Virus record (IMG/VR): IMGVR_UViG_3300030419_006839
Span: 40,852 to 104,851 of that record
Reading direction: 5' to 3' (one strand)
DNA: 64,000 bases
From: a virus
How positions within the stretch are numbered: the stretch's first letter is position 1; the number at the start of each line of letters is the position of its first letter. The notes below the pieces were generated by a model that ran no database searches, was not told the DNA's origin, and saw only the letters and a program-made list of their open reading frames with translations. Shown piece after piece: positions 6,901 to 62,802 of the stretch. A program made the translations under genes and the position numbers.

Positions 6901-9900
6901 GCAGATAGTCACGGATCTTCAGGTTTCAGCAAAACTAACAATTGTACAAAATTCACCAATAAAGTTAATGAAACTATAAAGAAATTATCCAATGATGACC
7001 AATATTACAGCAATAATCTAAATCCCATCTTGGAAAACATTCCACACACAACAACAGAAAATCAAGCATCTGGTGGTAGTCAATCTTTAGATTCTGGATC
7101 TGGTTCTAGTAACTATCAAGGAACATCAACAAGTAGTGAACTTAATTATTTTAAACCTGATGAACAATACGATGCGTCTGGTAGTATGCCGATAACTGAA
7201 ATAAATCCAGATTTTACTTCTAGTCCAGTTAATAAAAACCCCAAAGATTTCCCTCCAATACAATTTCTTTTAGATCCTTCAAAAGATTCAAGACAAGTTA
7301 GATTGAAAAGAATTTCACATAGTAGCTATCGTGGAGAGTATGTTGAGAAAATGTCTTTAAATAGAGTTTTTTCCGATGGTGGAAAGAAAAGACGGCAATT
7401 AGAAGTTAGTCAATACTCCTCACCTAGATCTCCATTTGTTTCTGGAGATAAGGTTATATATTTAGCTGGAAATGAATTTTGGAGAGGTAGTTTGTTTAGT
7501 AGTAATGTTAGATTTAATCCATACTCTATGGATGGTAAAATGCTAATATTGGATTGTAAGAATACATCTAAAGAAAACATATTTTTTGGCAAAGCATCTC
7601 CTATAGATGAATTTACAAACTATGTAAATGCTAAAGGAAATAATGATGCCATGAAAGGTTTTTCATCAAACTCAGTAACAGATAGTTCTGGAAATACATA
7701 TGTTGTTTCTGGGAAAGATGCTTTACACCTACTAAGTTTTAGTGATGTACCTAAACCAAAACAAAATAGCTCAGGTAGTTTTAAACGTAAAAATAGTGGA
7801 TATATGTTAACTTTGATTGATGGTAAGTTAGAACTATCAACTCAAGCAAATAGAGATTTCTTATCGAAAACAATAAACTATAATGAAGAATTAATAACTG
7901 ATGGTAATAATTTCTTTAATTTTTCAATATTAAAGTATGGAAACGAACTATCTACAAAAATACCACTAATTGATACTAATAAAGAAAATTACTATGGCAT
8001 TATTTCTAAATTAGCAAGTTTAGTTGATGCTGAATTTGGTATAGAAAATCAAGAACCATACTTTAGAAATAAAGATTCAAATATGCTACTGTCTTCAGAT
8101 TTTGGTACATCATTAACACCAAGAGGTGGGCCATTAGATACAGACAACTCAATACTGAATAAATTCCTATTGGATTCAGAATATACATTTTGGTATGTAA
8201 ATGGTGAAATAGTCTCTGTCTATAATCAAGCATACAATGGATCTTCAACAAATAAGATAGTTGAAAGAGGGTTATTAGGTACAGAAGTAAAAGAACATGG
8301 ACAAAACCAAATAGTTTATAGAATGAAACTATATGCAGATGATAAGAATCTCATAAGTATAAATAACTACAGTAAAGATTATGATAATATATATAATGAA
8401 GTTAGAGTTGATTTTAACAGTAAAGAGGGTTTTCAAGATTCTATTGTTGTCTCTACAAACAATGAAAGTTCATCATATGATCGTACTTTTAATTATTCTG
8501 CTCCATTTATAACTGAAGGTTCTTGGGCTAAGGGAATTGCATATAGGCTTTTAAATAGACTTTCAAAAGAAAAATATTTAATTGACATGTCTATAAGGAT
8601 TAACCCTGAATTAAAAAATGCAGATTTTATAGTAGTTAATTGTGGTGAGTATAATATTAGTAATAAGCTTTTTCAGATAAAATCAGTATCACACAACTTA
8701 ACGGAACATATCACAAATATAAGTGCAATTTCCGTAGAAGAACCCACACTTAGTCTATCGTATTATAATGGTAGTAGTTTTGTTGCATATAACGATGGAA
8801 TAGATGCTGGATCAAATAAAATAGCTGGAAACGATGAGACTTTAATAATTAAACTAACAAATGAAGGAAATTATGATTTAAATATCAGTGATATTTTTAT
8901 TGATGACATAAGTTTTAAAGTTTTTAGATATGTGAATGGGGTAAAGAGTAAGGAAATAGAAAGAAATGATTCTGATTCTGGGTTTAAAGTTGGATCAGAA
9001 AAAGACTTAACCATACCTGTTGGCTCTAGTAAAGAGTTTTATATAAGTTTTATCTTACCACAAGAAAGTAATTTCTTTAGGGAATTAAGTATAGTTTCTA
9101 ATTTAGAAAAAAATCCCATTAGCCACTTCTCTATTTTTGGATCAATTAAATCTATAAGTCTAGATGTAGAAGGTGATTTAAGTTTTGGAAACATAAACAA
9201 TAACCAACCTAAATCAAAAAGAATTGTTGTTAAAAATAAGGGAGTTAATGAAATTAAATTAACCAATCTAGAAATTAAGTCTGGGAAGCAAGGAACAATT
9301 TTAAACAGTTTAGATGGATTTTCTTTCAACAAGATAAATATAAGTAACAATCAATCAACATCAATAAACACATCTAATGTAAACATTACATTAAAAGGAG
9401 AGGATAGTGGTAGTGGAGAAGATTTCACAATAATTGAAGTTGTTTTTGACCCTAGTGAAACTGTTAGGAATGGAAGATATAGAGTGGATAAAACTGGAAT
9501 TGAAGGAAATATAAAATTATTTATAGATGCAGAAACTACTGGTGGTACTAGTACCACATTAGCTTCAAGTTTAAACAGTACATCTCAACAAATAACCCTT
9601 ACAGATTCCAGTGGGTTTGATGTTGGTGATAACATAATGATAGATACAATTGAAATGGAAATAGTAGGTAAAAGTGGAAATACAATTTCAGTGGACTCTA
9701 GAGATAAACACAATGATAGTATACAAACCATACCAAAATCTTACAATTCTGGTACAAGTGTAATTAACCTAAAAAATACAGTTTCTACAAAAAGGATAAA
9801 TTATAGTGGTAAAATAAATAGTATACCAGTAAGTGCTAGAATACATGCCAATAGAATAAAACTATATGGCTTAGACAATTTAGAACTTCCAAAACAAGAT

Positions 9901-51987: not shown

Positions 51988-52539
51988 ATGCAAGATAATG
52001 GGTATAGAAAATCATATTTTGAAGGATATTTGTCAGCTTATAATGATCTAATAACTAAAAAAATCAATAGAAAAAAAGTTTCTAAGTTTATAACAGAAAT
52101 GAAAGAATGGTCAGGTGTTGAGTTTGATGTGTCTAGATTAAATAGAATAAAAGAAATGCAAATACCTTCTATAGAAAGATCTAAATCTTATAGAGAAGTG
52201 GATCTTAAACCAGGATTTGTTTATTTTGTAAGAAAAAGAGGTACTGATGAAATTAAGATTGGTCATACAGTTAATATTAAGAGTAGGATGCAAAGTATAA
52301 AGACAGGTGTAACGGGAGAATTAGAATTAATTTTTAAGGAAACCTGGGAGTATAATAATTCTAAAAGTGGATCGTATTGGGCAAAATATTCAGAGAAAAA
52401 TTACCATTCTCTCTTTTCTAGTTATAGAATAAAAAGAGAATGGTTTTTACTGCCAAATATAGATAATTATATTTCTGGATCTTTGTTCAATAAGAAAGAA
52501 TATGTTTCTAGCCTACAAAGTAATGACCCTAGAAGTTAG
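51988..52539 (+). CDS. GIY-YIG-like (T5orf172/MUG113) protein
   Basis: 183 residues; the C-terminal half reads FVYFVRKRGTDEIKIGHTVN, SRMQSIKTGVTGELELIF, then EKNYHSLFSSYRIKREWFLL, the fold of T5orf172-type GIY-YIG proteins. The N-terminal ~70 residues are a basic helical region. Some of these are nucleases or homing-related; this one has its own promoter region and may move independently. The Glu and Arg of the active site are plausible but not certain. Confidence 0.65.
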   Translation: MQDNGYRKSYFEGYLSAYNDLITKKINRKKVSKFITEMKEWSGVEFDVSRLNRIKEMQIPSIERSKSYREVDLKPGFVYFVRKRGTDEIKIGHTVNIKSRMQSIKTGVTGELELIFKETWEYNNSKSGSYWAKYSEKNYHSLFSSYRIKREWFLLPNIDNYISGSLFNKKEYVSSLQSNDPRS

Positions 52540-52543
52540 GGTC
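52525..52543. terminator. Convergent terminator
   Basis: GACCCTA, loop GAAGT, TAGGGTC, over the end of the GIY-YIG-like gene and touching the end of the next - strand gene. Confidence 0.55.
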
Positions 52544-52743
52544 TAACTTGTTATAGAATCAATTATTTTTTGAATGATTTTTTCAGTTAGGGTATCTATA
52601 AACTCATCTGTTTCATCCATTAATTTTTCTAGAACCATTTCAACGACTTTTTCTACTAATTCGTCACCTTGATCCTGAATTTCACTTACAACTTCATCTT
52701 TTAGCTTACCAGCTAAACTACTAGCTAAATCTCCAAATCCCAT
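52543..52743 (-). CDS. Unknown 66-aa amphipathic protein
   Basis: A fully helical, Glu/Asp/Leu/Ile-rich peptide (EMVLEKLMDETDEFIDTL) with strong amphipathic periodicity. TAGGAGGTAA precedes it. It lies directly downstream of the SbcC C-half and may be a partner. No family recognised. Confidence 0.5.
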   Translation of the reverse strand: MGFGDLASSLAGKLKDEVVSEIQDQGDELVEKVVEMVLEKLMDETDEFIDTLTEKIIQKIIDSITS

Positions 52744-52753
52744 TACTTACCTC

Positions 52754-53365
52754 CTATATTGATATAGAAAAATCTTTTTCTTTTTTTACATGTATTACAT
52801 GATCTGCATGTATTTGTATGTCTTGTTTATGAGAAACCATTATGATTTGAATACCCAATCTTTCACAAATTTCGCTAATAAAGCTAGATGCGTTTTCCAG
52901 GTACTCCAAACTAAGAAACTTCAAAGGCTCATCCAAGATTATTATTTTAGATGAATTTTGAAGATGAATAAAAATAATACGAACAACTAAGGAAATTATA
53001 TCGTTTATACCACCTCCTGATGATTTTTGTGGTGAAACTTCAATACCCTCCTCTGTTAAAAACACCTCTACGGCAGGTTGATTCCTGTATGTAGAAATTT
53101 TTATGTTGAAAATTATATCCTTTTCAAATATTTTACTTAAAGCTTCTGTGATTAGTGAGTTGAAGATTGAACAGATTTGACCTCTGTATTTTTCTGAAAC
53201 AGCGATTAAAAAATTCTTTAATTCTTCGTATGTTTTGTCTAAGTTTTCTAATTCGGAAAGGTTTGTTTCATATCGAGTAACTGATTTTGATAACTCACCA
53301 ATCTCTCTTTCATGTAGGTTAACTTCATTCAAGATATTATTGAGTTTAATTTTTAAATTTTTCAT
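52754..53365 (-). CDS. SbcC/Rad50-type ATPase, C-terminal half
   Basis: A 203-residue protein; the frame extends to 53401, but that part is a terminator, so ATG 53365 is chosen even though its site is weak. After ~70 residues of coiled coil come the ABC signature-like segment SSGGGINDIISLVVRI, Walker B KIIILDEPLKFLS and H-loop IIMVSHKQD. These are exactly the parts missing from the + strand N-half at 18769. No CxxC hook is present here. The two would have to associate through their coils and share the ATPase head. Confidence 0.8.
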   Translation of the reverse strand: MKNLKIKLNNILNEVNLHEREIGELSKSVTRYETNLSELENLDKTYEELKNFLIAVSEKYRGQICSIFNSLITEALSKIFEKDIIFNIKISTYRNQPAVEVFLTEEGIEVSPQKSSGGGINDIISLVVRIIFIHLQNSSKIIILDEPLKFLSLEYLENASSFISEICERLGIQIIMVSHKQDIQIHADHVIHVKKEKDFSISI

Positions 53366-53373
53366 ATTGATAT

Positions 53374-53399
53374 AAAAAAAGCCCACCATTTCGGTGGGC
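53374..53399 (-). terminator. Terminator after the SSB-like gene
   Basis: GCCCACC, loop GAAAT, GGTGGGC, then seven T. It sits between the SSB-like gene and the SbcC C-half, so the latter may need its own promoter or read-through. Confidence 0.9.
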
Positions 53400-53412
53400 A
53401 ATTATTAGTTTT

Positions 53413-54291
53413 TTAGAAAGGTGAATCGTCTGATGCTGAATCAGAAGATATTTTATCTTGCATCATCTTCTTCAAATCAGCAGAAACATTATCGAAAGAA
53501 CTAGAGTTGGAATCGTTATTATTAAAACCATTACCATTTTGACTTCCACGATCTTCATGGACACCAGTTAGGTACTCTATTATCTCATCTCTAGTTCTGA
53601 TTCGATAATAATCCTCTAGGTTAATAGAGTTGTTTTTAACTAAGTCAGATTCTTCAGGACTTAGTGGTGATTCGTTTTTACCTGCAATAATTTCAAATTT
53701 CTGACCACCGAATCTATCAGGGTGGTACTTCAACAATAAATCATAACCAGACTTATCATCAGATGGATCTCCTCTATAAGACTCACTTAAAAAGTCTGCA
53801 TTAGGGTCACTTTCAGAAGGAGGAGTTGCCATTTCTACTAACTCATTAAATGGTGATTTCCTAAATCCAATAATACCCATCAATTCCTCTGGTGGTAAGC
53901 TTGACTTCTGTGCCATTCGGTCAATACAATTAATAGACGCTTGAAAAGTAGCTCTAGATGGTGTTGCATCCTTACCCCAAGAAGGAGGAGGCTGTTTAAA
54001 CGAGCAAAAACCTAAATCTGAGTGCTTTTCACCTTTTAGCTGAAGGTCATATACTTCATCAATTGGACACTTTCCATCTATACGAAGTATAGTAGATCCA
54101 CTATAGTCATAATTTATACATGGAATAACAATAGTAACTGATGTTCCCGTTGTCTTCTCAACTTCAATGAAATGTAGTTGTCTTCGTACAATATCTCCTA
54201 CTAGTCTTACTCTTGGATTTTTTTTCCAATCAATAAAGTTTGCCTTTGGTAAACTACCTGTGTTTTCAGCTTTAAGTTGTCCTAATTTCAT
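53413..54291 (-). CDS. Single-stranded DNA-binding protein-like
   Basis: 292 residues. The N-terminal half has an OB-like beta pattern with aromatic and basic residues; the C-terminus is Ser/Asn-rich, then acidic, ending ASDDSPF. This tip resembles the DDIPF-type tail of SSB proteins that recruits partners. It has a strong promoter (P12) and terminator of its own, as expected for a highly expressed SSB. Homology to gp32 is not shown directly. Confidence 0.6.
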   Translation of the reverse strand: MKLGQLKAENTGSLPKANFIDWKKNPRVRLVGDIVRRQLHFIEVEKTTGTSVTIVIPCINYDYSGSTILRIDGKCPIDEVYDLQLKGEKHSDLGFCSFKQPPPSWGKDATPSRATFQASINCIDRMAQKSSLPPEELMGIIGFRKSPFNELVEMATPPSESDPNADFLSESYRGDPSDDKSGYDLLLKYHPDRFGGQKFEIIAGKNESPLSPEESDLVKNNSINLEDYYRIRTRDEIIEYLTGVHEDRGSQNGNGFNNNDSNSSSFDNVSADLKKMMQDKISSDSASDDSPF

Positions 54292-54350
54292 TTTTTCATT
54301 TCTCCATTTAATTTTAATTATTTTTGTTTTTAATTGGCTTAATTGCCTTA

Positions 54351-54387
54351 CAATTTAAATTATCGACTGTTTTTAGTTAACTTTAAT
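54351..54387 (-). promoter_or_regulatory. Phage promoter P12 (- strand), before SSB
   Basis: ATTAAAGTTAACTAAAAACA, then GTCGATAATTTAAATTG. The TATA box is weaker than in P1-P11. It follows directly the end of the structured small RNA. Confidence 0.65.
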
Positions 54388-54396
54388 TTTTTTATT

Positions 54397-54481
54397 AAAA
54401 AAAAAGAAGAGTAGTTTAATTAAGCTATATTGAAGGATGGATACAGCTTTATGTCGGGTAAAGACAAAGAACTACTCTTCT
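54397..54481 (-). ncRNA. Candidate small RNA with three-way junction
   Basis: On the - strand a 12-bp closing stem (AGAAGAGTAGTT / AACTACTCTTCT) encloses two hairpins, CUUUGUC-UUUACCC-GACAUAAAG and AGCUGUAU-10 nt-AUAUAGCU. It ends in eight U, like a terminator. Length about 85 bases. It lies between the portal gene and the SSB promoter. A TATATAG box about 30 bases upstream could serve as its promoter. Confidence 0.6.
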
Positions 54482-54549
54482 ATTAAGGAGTCACACAAAC
54501 AACCAACACACTATATAACGTGATTTATGTTTGTTTATTTACTAAATAT

Positions 54550-56187
54550 TTAACTTTCTTGACTTGTTGAAGCTATTTGATTGATTGATAACTGAATATC
54601 ATCAATTTTGTCTTCTAGGTTATCTAATCTATTTTCAGTTTCCTCTTTAGGAAGTGAATAAGATTTAAACATTGCATCTCTCTCACTCAAACTAGCAGCA
54701 ATAGCATCAGTTAGGTCAGAATCCTCTAGTTCTTCTAAACCAGTAGGTAATCCTGGATTTGGTAATTCTAAGCCATTAGAGCCTATTTTAGAGCCTTTAA
54801 GTGTCATCTTAAGGGGTACATCACCCCACTCGACTTCAGGTAGTCCGAATCTATGTTTTCTAACATAATTTATTGTTAAAACACCTTCCATTAATTGTTG
54901 TCTGTCTAAATCCCATTGTTCTTGTTCATCTAAAGATTTTTCCAATCCCCAATCTAAATATACATCTCTATACCCAAAACCACCTTTGTGTCCAATTTTA
55001 GGGTTTGGTAAAGACCAAATCAATTCAGAATTTAAATGATATGCAAAGGTGGATAACTGAGGAATTAAGGCATCTTTTTCAAACTGTTCTTGTTGTTGTT
55101 CTGAGTTAAGCTTACCTGTGTTGGGTGTTACCATACCTAAAACTAATGGTTGCATGTTAAAAACAGACATTATTTGTTCCAACATCCATTGACTATATTG
55201 CTTAAAAGACATTTCACTTGGAGCTAAACCTACTTTTTCTATTTTAACAGATCCTTCACCCTCTCCAGTAGAGATTAATATAGGTCTATGTGGTTTTCCC
55301 CTTAAGTTGTTATCCCAGAATTTTTGATATTCCTGTAATCTTTCTAGGGATACATTATTAAACAATACAGCTAATCTTGGAGTTGCATCATTACCAAAAA
55401 GTGCTGAATTATAGTTCTCAACTCTTGTTGCATTAACTACAGTTTTTGCTAATGTTTCTATTTTTGAAGTCCCATAAGGTGTTCCAGATCTTGGATTCAT
55501 TACCATATATATAAGTTCGTCTATACCATACCAAACACCACTTAAATGACTTGAGTTTTTCTTTTCTGAATCAGTCATAAATATATTGGTAAACCCTCTA
55601 TCTTGATCATCATAATCATGACCAGAGCTTTGAATGTCAGATTTTTCAAAGTAGCATTTATTGAAATTTATAAAATTCCCAGATTTATCTGTATTTAATA
55701 CAAAACTAGGAGAATGGGCAGCATATATTTCTACAGGCATACCAAATTCATCACGAACTATCTCCAAACAACCTGCATCATAAACTAACATATCTCTGTC
55801 AAGTTTTTGTCGAATTGAACTAAAAGATTCTCTACTTGAGTTTGGATTTATAACTAAGTCTGCTAGTTTTTCAATGTGACGCATTTGTTGATCGCTTGGG
55901 TTTGATGCATCATTGTCTGGAGTTGCAATAGGAACTATTTCTGGTGGGATTAAACTTAATCTAGTTACAATTTTATCAACACATGCACGAATCCATGTAT
56001 TTTTTTCATAAATTAACCTCATCTCATCAAAAGTTAAGTAGTCAACAGTGTTTCTTTCAAGCGAAATCCTTCTTTCTTCTCCAATTTCAACCCTTCGCTT
56101 TCTCTTTTTTATTGCGTTGGTTGTATTTAGTTTTAAAGAGGGTCTTTGCATAGAAAGAATTTTATTTGATTTTGTAAAAGAAATCAT
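54550..56187 (-). CDS. Portal protein
   Basis: 545 residues with the HK97/phage portal pattern: IRACVDKIVTRLSLIPPEIV near residue 65, GTPYGTSKIETLAK near 236, and NMQPLVLGM followed by GKLNSEQQQEQFEKDAL near 345. The C-terminal end is helical with Gln/Glu-rich coils. It forms the dodecameric channel where DNA enters the capsid and docks the terminase, whose genes lie just upstream. A gap of ten bases separates it from the membrane protein before it. Confidence 0.85.
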   Translation of the reverse strand: MISFTKSNKILSMQRPSLKLNTTNAIKKRKRRVEIGEERRISLERNTVDYLTFDEMRLIYEKNTWIRACVDKIVTRLSLIPPEIVPIATPDNDASNPSDQQMRHIEKLADLVINPNSSRESFSSIRQKLDRDMLVYDAGCLEIVRDEFGMPVEIYAAHSPSFVLNTDKSGNFINFNKCYFEKSDIQSSGHDYDDQDRGFTNIFMTDSEKKNSSHLSGVWYGIDELIYMVMNPRSGTPYGTSKIETLAKTVVNATRVENYNSALFGNDATPRLAVLFNNVSLERLQEYQKFWDNNLRGKPHRPILISTGEGEGSVKIEKVGLAPSEMSFKQYSQWMLEQIMSVFNMQPLVLGMVTPNTGKLNSEQQQEQFEKDALIPQLSTFAYHLNSELIWSLPNPKIGHKGGFGYRDVYLDWGLEKSLDEQEQWDLDRQQLMEGVLTINYVRKHRFGLPEVEWGDVPLKMTLKGSKIGSNGLELPNPGLPTGLEELEDSDLTDAIAASLSERDAMFKSYSLPKEETENRLDNLEDKIDDIQLSINQIASTSQES

Positions 56188-56197
56188 ATTATTCCTC

Positions 56198-56566
56198 CTA
56201 ATCGTCTTCTTCTAAGTTTTCTATTTCAGGTTGAAGTAAAATTCGATCATTAATAAAAGCAGAGAAAAGACTTATCAGAAGTAAGTTTAAAGAAGAAAGA
56301 TAAGAATCTTCATATGCTTTGAATGCAGATAATAATAAACAAGAGATAAATATTATCGCAGTTAAAAATTTTAAATAAATATCTAAATCTAAAGTTATAA
56401 AATATCGTACAAAGTTGTAAACTTTTCTAAAAATTGATTTAATAAATCTAATTATACCTTCTACAATTAAAACTTGAAAGTTAAATATTTCTTCTAGTAT
56501 TTCTCCAGAGTATTTAATAAAGTTCACTAAGATAGCCAAAATAACCACCGTCCTTTGGTTTAGCAT
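56198..56566 (-). CDS. Unknown membrane protein (122 aa)
   Basis: Several hydrophobic segments (VVILAILVNFIKYSG, LKFLTAIIFISCLLLSAF, SLNLLLISLFSAFI), acidic end. It overlaps the terminase nuclease gene by 53 bases; a shorter start would reduce this. A membrane protein between terminase and portal genes is unusual. Function unknown. Confidence 0.5.
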   Translation of the reverse strand: MLNQRTVVILAILVNFIKYSGEILEEIFNFQVLIVEGIIRFIKSIFRKVYNFVRYFITLDLDIYLKFLTAIIFISCLLLSAFKAYEDSYLSSLNLLLISLFSAFINDRILLQPEIENLEEDD

Positions 56567-57512
56567 TTGTTTTTATTGTATATATAACACCAGCAATAGC
56601 TTGAATTAAATCATGACTACCACCTGGAGGGTGGTCATATTTGTTTCCAACTCTTTCTAGTTGTCTTAACTCTTTGTGTGGTAGGTTAACTTCACCTTCA
56701 GGTGTTTTAACATTTAATGGATACATATTTATTCTTTTTTCATAAATAGCTTTAATCAACTCATCAAAAGGTTCAGTTGTTCTATCTATAGATAAGGTAT
56801 CGGCATCCATTCCTACAGCTTTCATGTTTTGTATAAAGTCTGCTGATTGGTAACCATCTAAAGTTACCCTATGTATATTATATCCTCTTTTGATTACATC
56901 AAAAATTATTTGTCTAATTGCTATTAATTGAACTGGACTTTCTTTATAACCTTTAAATGATGCTAGTAAATCAAAGGAGACTATTGGTTCTTTTATTTTT
57001 CTCACTCTATTTTGTGCATCTCTTTGTTCTTTTTCTACCCAATCTTCTGCATGACCTACAGCCAAACCTAGTCGATCTTGAGTTAATCCTATATCAACGT
57101 GGCAATATCTTCGTATGTGATCTTGACAAATAAAATCATCTCTAAAAACGGTATTAACTACTTCACCATTTGGTTGTAGGAACGGATTTTTTATAATTGG
57201 ATGTTTAAAATCTTTTAGTTTTTCAAAAGATTTTTCAATAAACTCTGAGTGTTCAATAGCAGGAGCGACTGCATCAATTGGATTAGCACCAAAATCTCTC
57301 GTAGCTAATGCAGGGTTTCTTAGAAACTCATCCATATAACTTTCTATTGTTTGGGTATCTCTCATTCTCCAAGTAGGTGCTTGTATTGCAAGAGATTTGT
57401 CAAATTTAAACATTCTGACATCATAATCGTACTTTTCTTTGACAAAATCTGGATTTAAAGAGGTTCTACTACTATAGTCTTGCTCTAAAGAGAAAATTGA
57501 TTCATCACTCAT
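56514..57512 (-). CDS. Terminase large subunit, nuclease half
   Basis: 332 residues. It begins with a region typical of the inter-domain part of large terminases (KSLAIQAPTWRM, then LRNPALATRDFGANP). The RNase H-like nuclease follows, with Asp ligands in HVDIGLTQDR (D140), TLDGYQ (D219) and GGSHDLIQAIAG (D301). There is no Walker A or B. It cuts concatemeric DNA for packaging. The ATPase half is a separate gene at 58231-59025, with two small genes between. Confidence 0.85.
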   Translation of the reverse strand: MSDESIFSLEQDYSSRTSLNPDFVKEKYDYDVRMFKFDKSLAIQAPTWRMRDTQTIESYMDEFLRNPALATRDFGANPIDAVAPAIEHSEFIEKSFEKLKDFKHPIIKNPFLQPNGEVVNTVFRDDFICQDHIRRYCHVDIGLTQDRLGLAVGHAEDWVEKEQRDAQNRVRKIKEPIVSFDLLASFKGYKESPVQLIAIRQIIFDVIKRGYNIHRVTLDGYQSADFIQNMKAVGMDADTLSIDRTTEPFDELIKAIYEKRINMYPLNVKTPEGEVNLPHKELRQLERVGNKYDHPPGGSHDLIQAIAGVIYTIKTNAKPKDGGYFGYLSELY

Positions 57513-57868
57513 TTAAAAATACCAAAAAGAAATGAGAAAAATCCTTTCTTTTTCTCTTTTTCTATTATTTTTTCTGCTACTTTTTCAGAATCTATCTTAT
57601 ATTCTGAATTTTGTACACGTTCCCTTAAATCCTTCAGTTGTTGTTCTCTATCTGGATCAATTTCATTCTGTTTTTGTATGAAATCTAGGTTTTCCATTTC
57701 TTTTTTTTCGTTTTCACCTGAAAATTCAAAAATAGCTTTAACAATTTCTATTTCTTCATTTGTAAGGCTTTCTAGGTGACTTTTTAATACAAAATCTGTT
57801 CCTTTAGAGATTTCTATTAAATGTTTTGAATTTGTACCCAATTCTTTTGCTAACTCGTAAACTCTCAT
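57509..57868 (-). CDS. IF2-N-like domain protein within the split terminase
   Basis: 119 residues. Begins VYELAKELGTNSKHLIEISK, the short helical pattern of the N-terminal domain of translation initiation factor IF-2, then a charged coil and a basic C-terminus (KKGFFSFLFGIFK). It overlaps the nuclease half by 4 bases. The domain binds partners in IF-2; here it might help assemble the terminase. Confidence 0.5.
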   Translation of the reverse strand: MRVYELAKELGTNSKHLIEISKGTDFVLKSHLESLTNEEIEIVKAIFEFSGENEKKEMENLDFIQKQNEIDPDREQQLKDLRERVQNSEYKIDSEKVAEKIIEKEKKKGFFSFLFGIFK

Positions 57869-57877
57869 TACAACCTC

Positions 57878-58225
57878 CTAAAAGTCGTGCAAATAAATAG
57901 AATTTATTCTTTTTTCTCTTTTTTCTTTACGTAATTTATTTTGTCTTTTCTTGTATTTTTTCAAATCTTTTTTGTGTTCTTCTTTGAAGTCTGAAGCGAA
58001 ACCAACAACCCTATATATTTTTAACATAATAGCAAAAACGGCTACGGCACTTGTTCCACCAACGCTCATTGCAATACTTTCACCAATCTCAGGAAATTCA
58101 TTAAATATAGGAGCAAGTAGTCCCAAAATACCACCTAAACTTGCAAATTTAGACCATGTGGTATCATGAACCCTATCTATTCTCTTATCATACTCCTCAT
58201 CTATTAATTCCTCTTGGTCTTTCAT
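57878..58225 (-). CDS. Membrane protein within the split terminase
   Basis: 115 residues from ATG 58225 (a TTG at 58240 overlaps the ATPase gene). Two hydrophobic segments (FASLGGILGLLAPIF, GGTSAVAVFAIMLKIY) and a basic C-terminus (KRQNKLRKEKREKRIN). A membrane-bound packaging accessory is possible; otherwise unknown. Confidence 0.55.
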   Translation of the reverse strand: MKDQEELIDEEYDKRIDRVHDTTWSKFASLGGILGLLAPIFNEFPEIGESIAMSVGGTSAVAVFAIMLKIYRVVGFASDFKEEHKKDLKKYKKRQNKLRKEKREKRINSIYLHDF

Positions 58226-58230
58226 TGCTA

Positions 58231-59025
58231 TTATTCCCAAAAATCTCTTCTATTACCACTAATTGCTATTTCTCTCATTTTCCTTACCGCAAAAGAATCT
58301 GTAGATTTTGGACTAGTTATAACTATTATTTTATAGTGATCTGGAAACCTTGTCTTACAACTACCTAAGAGTGAATTGTATATCTCATTTGCTGCGGATT
58401 TGTTCATATTATCTACAAACCAATCTGCTTCATCGAGTATTCCTTGTTTTGTATTATAACCCAACCAAGCAGTTGATTTTGAATGACCACAAACTCCAAT
58501 TATGTTTTTGGGAAAAATTATTCTATCTTTTGTATCAATATAGTATGGAACCCTGTGTCCATCTAAACTAGATAGTTCAAAAGCACTTTCCACTTCAAAA
58601 AAACACTTTGAATGTTTTAACTTTTCTCTAAGGTCAGTAAAAACTACATCCCTGGCTTGGTGTTGGTTTGTTGCCATATTTAAAAAATAAATGTGAGTTC
58701 CTACCGCTAAACTACTATATCTTTGTGGGTTTTTTAACATTGCAGTTTGCCAGATACCTCTACACTGATAAATAGATGAGTTAAAACTCTTTCCAGAACC
58801 TTTTCCTAGTACCAACCAAGCTTCTCTAACTTCAGGATCATCTACGTGCTTTAATAGACTTAAATTAGCATCTGAAATATCTAGAGATAAGTCCATATAG
58901 TCTTCACTCAGTATAAATTCCTCCATATCGACATTTTTTGTTTCATAATCACCATCAGATTGTGAAACTTCTATCCTTTTTTTTAATTCATCAGCAAAAT
59001 TTCCTAATAAAGATCCAGAATTCAT
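58231..59025 (-). CDS. Terminase large subunit, ATPase half
   Basis: 264 residues. Walker A (LVLGKGSGKSF, residues 71-81), Walker B (GILDEADWF, D198/E199) and coupling motif (VITSPKS) are in order, as in large terminase motors. The protein ends about 20 residues after the coupling motif (NRRDFWE), where a full-length terminase would continue into the nuclease. It powers DNA translocation. It overlaps the preceding zinc-ribbon gene by 4 bases. Confidence 0.88.
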   Translation of the reverse strand: MNSGSLLGNFADELKKRIEVSQSDGDYETKNVDMEEFILSEDYMDLSLDISDANLSLLKHVDDPEVREAWLVLGKGSGKSFNSSIYQCRGIWQTAMLKNPQRYSSLAVGTHIYFLNMATNQHQARDVVFTDLREKLKHSKCFFEVESAFELSSLDGHRVPYYIDTKDRIIFPKNIIGVCGHSKSTAWLGYNTKQGILDEADWFVDNMNKSAANEIYNSLLGSCKTRFPDHYKIIVITSPKSTDSFAVRKMREIAISGNRRDFWE

Positions 59026-59750
59026 GGTAACTCTCCTGAAGTTAGTTTTTTAATACTTTCTGCCATTTCTATTTTTTTATTTTCGGCTATGTCTGCTTCC
59101 AATATGACTCCCATAACTTTCTCTATCATACCTCTGATCTCAGATACGTTTACCATTATTTTCAACTTTGCTTCTAATTCCATTAGGTTTGTTATGGTTG
59201 TTGTTATTTGCTGTATTAATTTTTGACTACTTCTAATGTCTTTTGCTTCAGGATAATCTCCATGTGCAGAAACATTGTACTGTAAGTATGTTCTCAATAG
59301 GGCTAATTCACCTCTTAGGTCATGTAATTGAGGATTGTCATATTCATCTTGCCAAATATTATATATTTCTGAGTTTTTCTCTATCTTGGGTATAAAACCT
59401 GTTTGAGTTTTTTGAAACTTACTACTATGGTTGTCCATAAATGATTCTCTTATCTCAAGGTCTGTTTTTTTACTATTGGACATATCAACAGTCTCCGATG
59501 TTTGGTTTTTAGATGCACCAACAGTTGGTTTTACATTGCCATGAGAAATACAAAAATCATATCTTACTCCAGTATTAACCCATTTATCTGTATCTGGGTC
59601 TTTAACGTAGTGAAATGGTCTATCTTTTTGGCAAGATGCTCTATCTACACCACAATTTGGACACTTAGTCAGTTCTTTAGATCTACCATAGTGATAGTCG
59701 CAATTTCTACAAGTAGATACTGGATAGCCACATTTTAAGTTTTCAGACAT
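59022..59750 (-). CDS. Zinc-ribbon protein, candidate terminase small subunit
   Basis: 242 residues. N-terminus has Cys pairs (STCRNCDYHYG, TKCPNCGVD), a likely zinc ribbon. The C-terminal half is a long helical region (LHDLRGELALLRTYLQYNV, coils to the end). Directly upstream of and overlapping the ATPase half, the usual place of the DNA-recognising small terminase. Function inferred from position. Confidence 0.5.
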   Translation of the reverse strand: MSENLKCGYPVSTCRNCDYHYGRSKELTKCPNCGVDRASCQKDRPFHYVKDPDTDKWVNTGVRYDFCISHGNVKPTVGASKNQTSETVDMSNSKKTDLEIRESFMDNHSSKFQKTQTGFIPKIEKNSEIYNIWQDEYDNPQLHDLRGELALLRTYLQYNVSAHGDYPEAKDIRSSQKLIQQITTTITNLMELEAKLKIMVNVSEIRGMIEKVMGVILEADIAENKKIEMAESIKKLTSGELP

Positions 59751-60242
59751 TTAAAAAATCCTATATTTATAATTAACCAATTTATCTATATTAAAAATCT
59801 TAAGAGGTTTTAAATATTCCAAAACATAACCTCCCCACTTCCATTCCTCATCAACAATGAAAGATTTCCTATTATTATCACACCAATTATTATACGAACT
59901 TATAGGTATTGCATAAGTTTTAGCTTTATTTAGAAAGCTAACCTTATTTTCAAACCCCATAGACATTATAACATATGATTTGCATCTATTTTTAGCAAAA
60001 TGAGATAGAGATTTTCTTTGGTGTTTTTTTAATTGACTTTTTTGTATTCTATCTTTTTTCGTGTATTTTAGTTCTAATGTAGTAAAACTTTTATCAAAAA
60101 ACCAAAAGTCACAAGGTTTTTCAAACCTAGCAAACCTTCCCATTTCTTCAGGTCTAAACCAGTAAAAATCTCTGTCTAAAAATCTATTTTTTTCTTGATA
60201 GAATATTAAAGTTTTTTCAAAAGCTTTTTCTTGTATGTTCAT
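59751..60242 (-). CDS. RecU-like Holliday junction resolvase
   Basis: 163 residues. FEKPCDFWFFDKSFTTLELK gives the D...ExK nuclease core and KSQLKKHQRKSLSHF matches the RecU HQ helix; VIMSMGF follows as a strand. RecU resolves four-way junctions; in phages such enzymes clear branched DNA before packaging, which suits its place next to the terminase. A PD-(D/E)xK nuclease of another kind is the alternative. Confidence 0.65.
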   Translation of the reverse strand: MNIQEKAFEKTLIFYQEKNRFLDRDFYWFRPEEMGRFARFEKPCDFWFFDKSFTTLELKYTKKDRIQKSQLKKHQRKSLSHFAKNRCKSYVIMSMGFENKVSFLNKAKTYAIPISSYNNWCDNNRKSFIVDEEWKWGGYVLEYLKPLKIFNIDKLVNYKYRIF

Positions 60243-60251
60243 AGGTTATCA

Positions 60252-61340
60252 TTATGTTGTACCGCACCAAAAAGCCATACCATTTCTCCTTATAAAGATT
60301 AAATTATTTCCTATTATTGGATAATGCAACTCTCCATTAAATTCTATTTTTCTATGGTGATCTCTTTTAACACAACTTGAACCTTCTTGATGTATACTTA
60401 ACTTATATTGTATATTTTTAGATACAATTTTATGCTTTATTTTATCACCAAATTCATATTCCTTCCCAATTACGTCTTTTATTATAACATTACTTCTACA
60501 ACCTAAGCATGAAGCTATAACTTGATAGTCTTTGGCTAAATCTTCTGATATTCCGCAAAAAACACCTTTGTTGAAACCTTCAGAGAACTCACCTACTCTT
60601 TCTACCATCCAACCATCACCAAGTATTGCTCCCTCTAGGAATTTCTCTAGCAACCTTGTAGAAAGATTAAAAATACTTTTCAATCTTCTTTCTTCTTTAG
60701 TTCTTCCTATTTTTTCTACGATCCACTCATGTAATGGCTTACTGTATATATTAAAGTAATATATGTCGGATAATCCTTGTTTTTCCCTAGAGTAGTGATA
60801 AACTTTTGATTTTTCACCAAAAAGTCTTTCTGAAACATCTTTTATTATGGGTATGTTTTTTTCTTTACACTGTGAAATACTAATAGTGTTTTTTTTCTTT
60901 GACAACGACCCGTCTGTTGCAACAATACCTAACCAGAAATAAAAATCTTCTGCATCTAATACAAAACTACCTATTTTTACTTCGGTAGGATCTTTAGTTT
61001 CTTCAAACTTTATTTTATGGTCAAAAACTAATGGTTTTTTCTTTATGTCACAATATTCTACAAAATCATTTCTCCTAGTTTGTTCATCTAAAACACCATG
61101 ATGTTGATTGTATTTACTTGTCCATAGATAAACTTCTTCTGAAAATTTTGGAGATTCCCAATATCTGGTTTTAAAGTAATATAGAGGTTTATCGTATGAA
61201 AATGAGTCCAATTCTTCTACTTCTTTCCACCTATCCAATAGGGAAGATGGATTTCTCATTAGTACTACTTCTTTATCTTTTATTGAGTTTATTGACTTAA
61301 AGCCATCTTGTGTTAATATTTCTGTGTCTTGGTCAAACAT
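60252..61340 (-). CDS. Free-standing intein-like Hint/LAGLIDADG protein
   Basis: 362 residues. It begins MFDQDTEILTQDGFKSI, the block A of an intein with Met in place of Cys1, and has block-B-like TSKYNQHHGVL. Two LAGLIDADG motifs follow: FYFWLGIVATDGSL (133-146) and LLEKFLEGAILGDGW (230-244). The end, FIRRNGMAFWCGTT, resembles an intein C-terminus but lacks the His-Asn and any extein. AGAAGG before the ATG shows it is translated by itself. It is probably an intein-derived homing endonuclease that can no longer splice. Confidence 0.75.
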   Translation of the reverse strand: MFDQDTEILTQDGFKSINSIKDKEVVLMRNPSSLLDRWKEVEELDSFSYDKPLYYFKTRYWESPKFSEEVYLWTSKYNQHHGVLDEQTRRNDFVEYCDIKKKPLVFDHKIKFEETKDPTEVKIGSFVLDAEDFYFWLGIVATDGSLSKKKNTISISQCKEKNIPIIKDVSERLFGEKSKVYHYSREKQGLSDIYYFNIYSKPLHEWIVEKIGRTKEERRLKSIFNLSTRLLEKFLEGAILGDGWMVERVGEFSEGFNKGVFCGISEDLAKDYQVIASCLGCRSNVIIKDVIGKEYEFGDKIKHKIVSKNIQYKLSIHQEGSSCVKRDHHRKIEFNGELHYPIIGNNLIFIRRNGMAFWCGTT

Positions 61341-61929
61341 TTCTACGACCTTCTAACATGGTGTGTATACAATCAATTAATTTTTCATGTTTATCTGTAT
61401 CGGAAAGATTAAACATGTACTTTAGGAATGAAGAATTTTCGTTTTTTCTTAATAATTTTAAATACTTAATATTTCCTTCAAATATGTCATAAAACCAAGA
61501 TGGAGGAGTTTTACCTTTTGTATTTAGATATAATTCAGCTTCCTTTCTCTTAACTCTTACAACAATATCTGGATTTAAATTTTCTACTTCTACATTAATA
61601 GCAGACTTTCTTTCATTTATTTCTGCAGACTTGAATTTTATATAATGTATTTCCTTAAGTGTTTTTCTTATGTTTTTTTTATAAAACACTAAGTTATGCT
61701 TTCTTAGTATATTTGATATTATTTCCTCTTGTTCTTCTCCTAACCAACTAACTTTCTGGTAAGATTTATCTAAAAAGCCTGAATCTTCATTGTTTGTATA
61801 GAGTTGATTTAGCATTTCATCAACTTTATCTTCACTAATGTCAATCATCTGCTCATCAGAAACTAAATCTTTAAGCATTTCTTTCTTTTCTTCTAAATTC
61901 AGAACAGAAGAATCTGCAACTACTTCCAT
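61333..61929 (-). CDS. Unknown 198-aa protein
   Basis: Helical and charged; LYLNTKGKTPPSWFYDIFEG in the second half. It overlaps the homing endonuclease start by 8 bases and lies 2 bases after the RecB-like gene. Could be a DNA-processing partner. No family recognised. Confidence 0.5.
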   Translation of the reverse strand: MEVVADSSVLNLEEKKEMLKDLVSDEQMIDISEDKVDEMLNQLYTNNEDSGFLDKSYQKVSWLGEEQEEIISNILRKHNLVFYKKNIRKTLKEIHYIKFKSAEINERKSAINVEVENLNPDIVVRVKRKEAELYLNTKGKTPPSWFYDIFEGNIKYLKLLRKNENSSFLKYMFNLSDTDKHEKLIDCIHTMLEGRRNV

Positions 61930-61931
61930 TT

Positions 61932-62711
61932 TTAACCTATAAATAATTTTTGATTTTTATCGAAAACCATATGAGATTTTGTTTGAAAAGCCATACATTC
62001 TTTTTTATGTTCGCAAAATTTACAATTCTTTTCTGAATAGGAAGCATTTAGGTTGTTTTTCTTTAGTCTGTTTTTTGTTTCTATAGAAATATCAAACAAC
62101 TTACTCATATCAGATATTCCTCTTGCTGTTTCTACAAACTTGTTATACCTCAAGAAATAAAAACCTATTTTATCTATATCAATATCTTGATAAGTAGAAG
62201 CAAAGTAATACATAGATAGTTGATTTGAATTATTAACTTCTTCTTTTGTAGATATTTTATAATTCGACTTCCAATCTACTAAGTAGGTTTCACCATCTAA
62301 TTCAAAAACTAAATCTATAAACCCACTCATAGTCATATCACCACTAACCTTAATTTTGAAATATTCCTCTAAAAAAAGTACATTAGCATTAGTCCATCCA
62401 CGCTTAATCATATCGTTAGACCAACTAATTAACATATGTTCTCCATCTTTTAAGAATTCTTGAGGGTCTTTATTAAAGGTAGGGGATTTTTTTACAAAAC
62501 TGTTATAGAAATTTTCTGTCCAGTTAATTTTAATGAATTCGTTATCTCCAATTGCATTGCTTTTTATAATATCTGCTATTGAAGCATGTAAACAACTACC
62601 AAAAACACCATAAGGTGATTCTACTGAACCTTTTCTTTTTTCTACGTACTTCCAAAAGCCTTTTAATTCACATTCTTGTGTGTCATTAATGGCACTCGCA
62701 CTTATTCTCAT
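61932..62711 (-). CDS. RecB/Cas4-like PD-(D/E)xK nuclease
   Basis: 259 residues. GFIDLVFELD and YLVDWKS form the D...DxK core, with QLSMYYFA as the QxxxY motif. CKFCEHKKEC near the end plus Cys14-like residues could bind a 4Fe-4S cluster, as in Cas4/AddB-type enzymes. Such single-domain proteins are phage exonucleases that process DNA ends. First gene of the - strand operon, with a promoter upstream. Confidence 0.8.
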   Translation of the reverse strand: MRISASAINDTQECELKGFWKYVEKRKGSVESPYGVFGSCLHASIADIIKSNAIGDNEFIKINWTENFYNSFVKKSPTFNKDPQEFLKDGEHMLISWSNDMIKRGWTNANVLFLEEYFKIKVSGDMTMSGFIDLVFELDGETYLVDWKSNYKISTKEEVNNSNQLSMYYFASTYQDIDIDKIGFYFLRYNKFVETARGISDMSKLFDISIETKNRLKKNNLNASYSEKNCKFCEHKKECMAFQTKSHMVFDKNQKLFIG

Positions 62712-62740
62712 TTAGTTTTCCTTATTAAAGTTAGTTTTAT

Positions 62741-62768
62741 TTTATACTATCAGTTATAATAATAACAA
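62741..62768 (-). promoter_or_regulatory. Sigma70-like promoter for the packaging operon
   Basis: On the - strand TTGTTA, 16 bases, TATAAA. It drives the RecB-like-to-portal operon, divergent from the sigma-like gene. Similar TTGTTA boxes precede the 50908 gene. Confidence 0.55.
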
Positions 62769-62802
62769 GTTTTTTTGAGTTTGTTTTACTTGAAAATTTT
62801 TC

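Follow-up and report, generated by a model that had tools for sequence, protein, structure and literature searches.

A Large Terminase Encoded as Separate ATPase and Nuclease Genes in a Phage and Its Uncultured Relatives

Results and Discussion

The large terminase (TerL), the enzyme that drives DNA into the phage head and cuts it, normally combines its motor and cutter halves in a single protein. Here, we examine a 64,000-nucleotide stretch of phage DNA (hereafter the window), which is the final 64 kb of the 104,851-base IMG/VR record IMGVR_UViG_3300030419_006839, and in which sequence analysis confirms that the two halves are separate, complete genes of a large terminase: an ATPase (motor) gene at 58231–59025 (264 amino acids) and a nuclease gene at 56514–57512 (332 amino acids), both on the minus strand. 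Our preferred explanation, to which we assign a probability of roughly 80%, is that this is a two-gene large terminase derived from one ancestral break, with halves that assemble non-covalently into a working enzyme. At the level of sequence, what is established is that the genes are separate and intact, that the catalytic residues are conserved, that the split terminases form one clade, and that no intron is detectable; the break itself appears to be inherited, and common to this phage and diverse uncultured relatives.

Motifs and Predicted Folds of the Two Halves

The ATPase half carries a Walker A motif, GKGSGKS (residues 74–80, codons at 58786–58806), a Walker B motif, ILDEAD (D198/E199, about 58423–58443), and a coupling motif, ITSPKS (residues 236–241, about 58303–58323), while the nuclease half carries D140 (57093–57095), D219 (56856–56858), D293 (56634–56636) and D301 (56610–56612), which are invariant in all 15 aligned split nucleases. 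In alignment with fused TerLs, Walker A, Walker B and the coupling motif fall on the ATPase gene and every nuclease acidic residue falls on the nuclease gene, in agreement with an earlier interpretation made without database searches (hereafter the sequence-only reading). The predicted folds support the same assignment. AlphaFold2 (AF2) models were built from alignments of the window and locus proteins and compared by Foldseek to the PDB. The ATPase model (predicted local distance difference test score, pLDDT, 84.5) has the T4 gp17 ATPase domain as its best match (2o0j, E 6e-6), with the Sf6, HK97, D6E and P74-26 terminases among the next best, and the nuclease model (pLDDT 77.7), which has an RNase H fold, best matches the G20c TerL nuclease (5m1k, E 1e-5), followed by D6E and T4 gp17. 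Each half alone is predicted to fold as a recognizable TerL domain. Profile matches to TerL families in PHROGs are weak, yet lie on the correct parts of both halves (phrog_2, phrog_17415); neither half has a match in a Pfam scan, and a profile search of PDB sequences likewise gave no match.

The locus therefore encodes an additional-strand, conserved-glutamate (ASCE) ATPase with Walker A, Walker B and coupling motifs, and an RNase H-fold nuclease with conserved acidic residues, but on separate open reading frames (ORFs) rather than on one polypeptide, and so we class it as a split TerL and not as a standard member of the family. A full-length terminase elsewhere, which the sequence-only reading had named as a finding that would overturn it, is absent from the 104,851-base record, which may be incomplete; we note that the Pfam Terminase_6N search for a second TerL is weak evidence, as the same search misses the window's own ATPase.

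The ratio of nonsynonymous to synonymous substitution rates (dN/dS) between two relatives, L002 and L003, is 0.025 for the ATPase and 0.036 for the nuclease, from which both halves are seen to be under purifying selection in relatives; most of the more distant pairs, the only ones in which the window was compared, are saturated at silent sites.

Split Terminases in Related Phages

Relatives were collected through IMG/VR scans and ORF-level hidden Markov model (HMM) classification. In about 19 IMG/VR contigs, the ATPase and nuclease are both present and separately encoded; all of these are metagenome contigs, and none is shown to be complete. Besides the window, the split is present in L001–L004, L018/L028, L019, L024, L030–L033, L042, L044, L090/L091, L096 and L108. 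The close relatives (L002, L003, L004, L018/L028 and L019, at 62–73% identity) have a single gene between the halves, as does L024 (one ORF), whereas L001 has three ORFs there. Elsewhere, the ATPase and nuclease genes are separated by 9 nt (L030) or overlap by 8 nt (L031) or 38 nt (L044), or are spaced about 1.5 kb (L032), 2.2 kb (L096) and 4.6 kb (L108) apart, and on the 49-kb contig G021 (L090) they lie on one strand 16 kb apart, with equal spacing in G022. The separate halves are common to these relatives, with intervening genes and spacing that vary. Each split record holding both genes has one ATPase and one nuclease gene and no second TerL, and the ATPase, nuclease and portal genes are neighbors in several lineages (the window, L002, L030 and L031).

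In L042, the nuclease match falls in two pieces, and L146 has a stand-alone nuclease gene after a small ORF, on a contig that begins 356 bases upstream. In-frame stops or frameshifts, probably assembly errors, occur in the nuclease or TerL ORFs of L033 (3771–5348), L042 (2977–3826), L092 (635–2196) and L102 (6421–7768). A metagenome-assembled genome, G012 (Deltaproteobacteria NP119), together with L051, contains split-TerL phage contigs of the L024 type, with the ATPase and nuclease on different contigs.

Isolate relatives in INPHARED are distant: the best-ranked matches reach no more than about 35% identity. The terL gene is fused in 9 of the 9 loci examined from isolates L008–L016; isolates beyond these are known only by annotation under partial matches. 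Some fused TerLs (L014, L078, L111, L117 and L125) reach 900–1160 amino acids, with long inserts in the ATPase domain or linker stretch, and the insert at the Walker A motif of L014 (895–4035, Rhodobacter phage RcTiptonus) looks like an intein.

Phylogeny and Origin of the Split

In a concatenated-domain tree of 58 rows (IQ-TREE, LG+C20 with posterior mean site frequencies, PMSF), the split rows, 13 after dereplication, group together in one clade inside the fused TerLs, with ultrafast bootstrap (UFBoot) support of 99 and a Shimodaira–Hasegawa-like approximate likelihood ratio test (SH-aLRT) value of 93. The only other row labeled as split, L092, lies apart from this clade, and on inspection proved to have a frameshift inside its nuclease domain. 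The split rows, numbering 14, are again a clade in the ATPase-only tree (SH-aLRT 97), and in a larger concatenated tree with 69 fused rows, from which L092 and L033 were left out, they make up one side of one branch, corresponding to one label change (SH-aLRT 87). The tree method does not itself supply a root; TerL is fused in the outgroups examined, and the history is therefore most simply read as a single fission. We consider one old fission at the linker to be the most likely origin of the sequences observed.

The Break and the Genes Within It

The sequence-only reading placed the division at the linker between the two domains, and this is supported by alignment with fused TerLs, where the break sits in the variable interdomain linker. 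From the coupling motif to a conserved nuclease Arg, the two genes together span 98 amino acids, compared to 53–106 in fused relatives whose corresponding stretch is free of inteins (a set that excludes L117 and L125), and so no conserved sequence was lost at the break. Throughout the split clade, except in L024, the ATPase ends 25–54 amino acids past the coupling motif.

Two genes occupy the gap in the window, both on the minus strand: one for a small membrane protein (57878–58225, 115 amino acids) and one for a protein of 119 amino acids (57509–57868) with an IF2-N domain, as had been recognized from the sequence (Pfam IF2_N, E 7e-9, above the cutoff). The tight overlap claimed for both sides stands only on one of them: the IF2-N and nuclease genes share a 4-nt ATGA stop–start overlap (57509–57512), but for the membrane gene, ATG 58225, 5 nt past the ATPase stop codon, is a more likely start than TTG 58240, the mechanical start of its ORF. 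The IF2-N gene has its own strong AGGAGG ribosome-binding site, the ATGA-coupled nuclease gene of the window has a weak site, and the L030 nuclease gene has a GAGGTGG of its own.

A search of five related records returned no match to either intervening protein, and the IF2-N protein has none in INPHARED phages. The close relatives carry instead one gene of 71–77 amino acids with no significant similarity to the window IF2-N protein and no match in G000. The idea that the intervening genes are kept because they are needed is not supported, as relatives lack the window pair and carry a different gene. Between the halves of L001 (5717–7949) and L033 (1085–3734) there are cysteine-protease/transglutaminase-like, small membrane and long helical genes, a set that differs from that in the window. 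As a deep clade shares the break with different genes or none between the halves, the intervening genes did not recently enter an otherwise intact gene, a scenario that would have counted against the sequence-only reading.

Alternative Explanations

Group I introns that split terL are documented, and are spliced in the Jug phages (PMC12363816) and likewise in Bastillevirinae (PMC11878797), so that the two halves might be exons rejoined in RNA by a self-splicing intron carrying both intervening genes; the intervening segment of about 0.7 kb is compatible with this. We nevertheless regard this explanation as highly improbable. An Rfam search in E-value mode, which found both the T4 td and nrdB introns as positive controls (9e-8 and 2e-6), found nothing in window positions 52000–62800 at E ≤ 1, and Rfam found no intron in L002, L028, L032 or L001 (a gathering-threshold scan missed the T4 introns and was not used as evidence, such that the E-value mode alone counts). 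Moreover, the interval is almost wholly coding, the 9-nt gap of L030 and 8-nt overlap of L031 leave no room for an intron, and other relatives have the genes 16 kb apart; no self-splicing intron between exons was found. Rejoining after translation, by a split intein that trans-splices both halves, is more improbable still, even though the fused relative L014 has what looks like an intein in terL at Walker A and a stand-alone Hint-like LAGLIDADG gene (60252–61340) lies 1.2 kb upstream of the window's ATPase gene. The ATPase tails beyond the coupling motif are mostly of only 25–54 amino acids, no intein C-terminal motif was seen by eye at the nuclease N-termini, and the Hint-like gene is without flanking terL parts; from the termini and lengths inspected, there is neither an IntN on the ATPase C-terminus nor an IntC on the nuclease N-terminus. 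A recent frameshift, gene decay or assembly artifact in an intact terL fits L092 exactly, where we accept it, and L033 and L042 do carry single lesions. For the split clade we reject it as having very little chance of being correct, in line with the sequence-only reading, which had argued against a simple frameshift: about 19 contigs, most differing in sequence, share the same break, with intact catalytic residues, own start codons, and the low L002–L003 dN/dS values given above. We also find it unlikely, albeit less so, that the ATPase alone is the packaging motor while the nuclease is an independent enzyme (for example, for cutting concatemers) outside the portal complex. Such independence would suit the 16-kb separation in G021/G022 with both genes conserved, as well as the observation that T4 gp17 with an inactivated nuclease can still package pre-cut DNA in vitro (PMC9958956), but in several lineages (the four noted above) both genes adjoin each other and the portal gene, and no alternative candidate for the headful nuclease came to light.

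Several points weigh against a two-gene terminase from a single ancestral break. The nuclease-only tree does not group the window trio with the other split nucleases and leaves the lineage of the window unplaced; none of its starred branches calls for a second change. Every split case is a metagenome contig, and the nuclease genes of L033 and L042 contain a stop or frameshift, these being probably assembly errors. Finally, T4 domains that are separated lose DNA translocation (PMC9958956), and this lineage may rejoin its halves or hold them by a special tether.

Neighboring Genes

The minus-strand order at the locus is zinc-ribbon (59022–59750), ATPase, membrane, IF2-N, nuclease, membrane (56198–56566) and portal (54550–56187). 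The portal gene, downstream of the nuclease, is identified by Pfam PF04860 (E 1e-29) and PHROG 12, and the small membrane protein gene between the two has a similar counterpart in the same place in L002, L003, L004 and L028. Directly upstream of the ATPase gene, with an ATGA overlap, is the gene for a cysteine-rich zinc-ribbon plus helical protein, which is a candidate terminase small subunit and a plausible third terminase component. Its Cys/His residues C7, C14, C17, C30, C33, C40, C67 and H70 are invariant across the window, L002/L003/L028, L024, L031 and L032 lineages, and the gene is also upstream of the ATPase gene in distant split-TerL phages (L031, L032 and L024).

The Hint-like LAGLIDADG gene, also on the minus strand, has an intein-like start (FDQDTEILT) and an intein-like end (RRNGMAFWCGTT) with no flanking extein, and L002 and L003 have similar genes upstream of their ATPase gene. 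L002 has a tRNA gene downstream of its portal gene (7758–7831), and ARAGORN detected none in the window.

Proposed Mechanism and Implications

In the two-gene terminase that we favor, an ancestral single terL would have undergone one break, in the flexible linker that joined its ATPase domain to its RNase-H-type nuclease domain. The halves, each with its own start and stop codons, would have remained under selection while other genes entered or left the gap. The two proteins would be translated separately and most likely meet non-covalently at the portal, where the ATPase ring would drive packaging and the nuclease would bind the ATPase (or the portal, or the zinc-ribbon protein) for the initial and headful cuts; under this division of labor, packaging would proceed without a covalent link between the halves.

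The need for covalent ATPase–nuclease coupling is central to competing motor models. In the T4 model, the C-domain is a "wheel" coupled via a flexible hinge, and without the hinge the separate domains retain ATPase and nuclease activity (PMC9958956), translocation being what they lose. As the T4 domains need their hinge, either this lineage has solved the coupling otherwise, or its motor moves DNA without the C-domain. We tentatively raise, at somewhat less than even odds, the more specific possibility that the ATPase ring translocates DNA without a covalent nuclease/translocation domain, and that a nuclease acting in trans is brought in solely to make the initiation and headful cuts; if true, this would rule out hinge-transmitted power-stroke models for this lineage. 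A natural two-polypeptide terminase under selection is surprising in view of T4 and makes the coupling question directly testable, and an inherited break challenges the T4-derived view that the halves must be physically joined. Separate subunits would also permit independent control of pumping and cutting. In addition, full-length TerL is a standard phage marker, and as Pfam found neither half here, searches for it may miss or mis-score split-TerL phages.

Comparison with Known Systems

The two-domain TerLs of tailed phages (T4 gp17, G20c/P74-26, D6E and HK97) resemble the present system in their ATPase and RNase-H nuclease folds, motif order and portal-adjacent position, but are one polypeptide where two genes are found here. 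Herpesvirus UL15 likewise has other genes between its ATPase and nuclease exons, although splicing joins these exons to yield one protein, and the genes between them are on the opposite strand. We found no description of a non-intron split TerL in open-access PMC, which omits most subscription papers. In the Jug phages (PMC12363816) and Bastillevirinae (PMC11878797), terL is also divided among at least two ORFs, and other ORFs commonly lie between these; there, however, group I introns are spliced out, while here no intron was found, the intervening genes are unrelated among relatives, and the spacing ranges from a 38-nt overlap to 16 kb. Intein-bearing TerLs (Microcystis phage Mic1, PMC7156551, and Rhodobacter phage RcTiptonus, L014) are similarly interrupted by a coding element, but their inteins excise to restore one protein, and no intein parts were seen at the break described here. 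The packaging ATPase phi29 gp16 is comparable in that it functions with no active nuclease domain (PMC7672431), although, unlike the split TerL, it retains a vestigial nuclease domain to which it is covalently joined.
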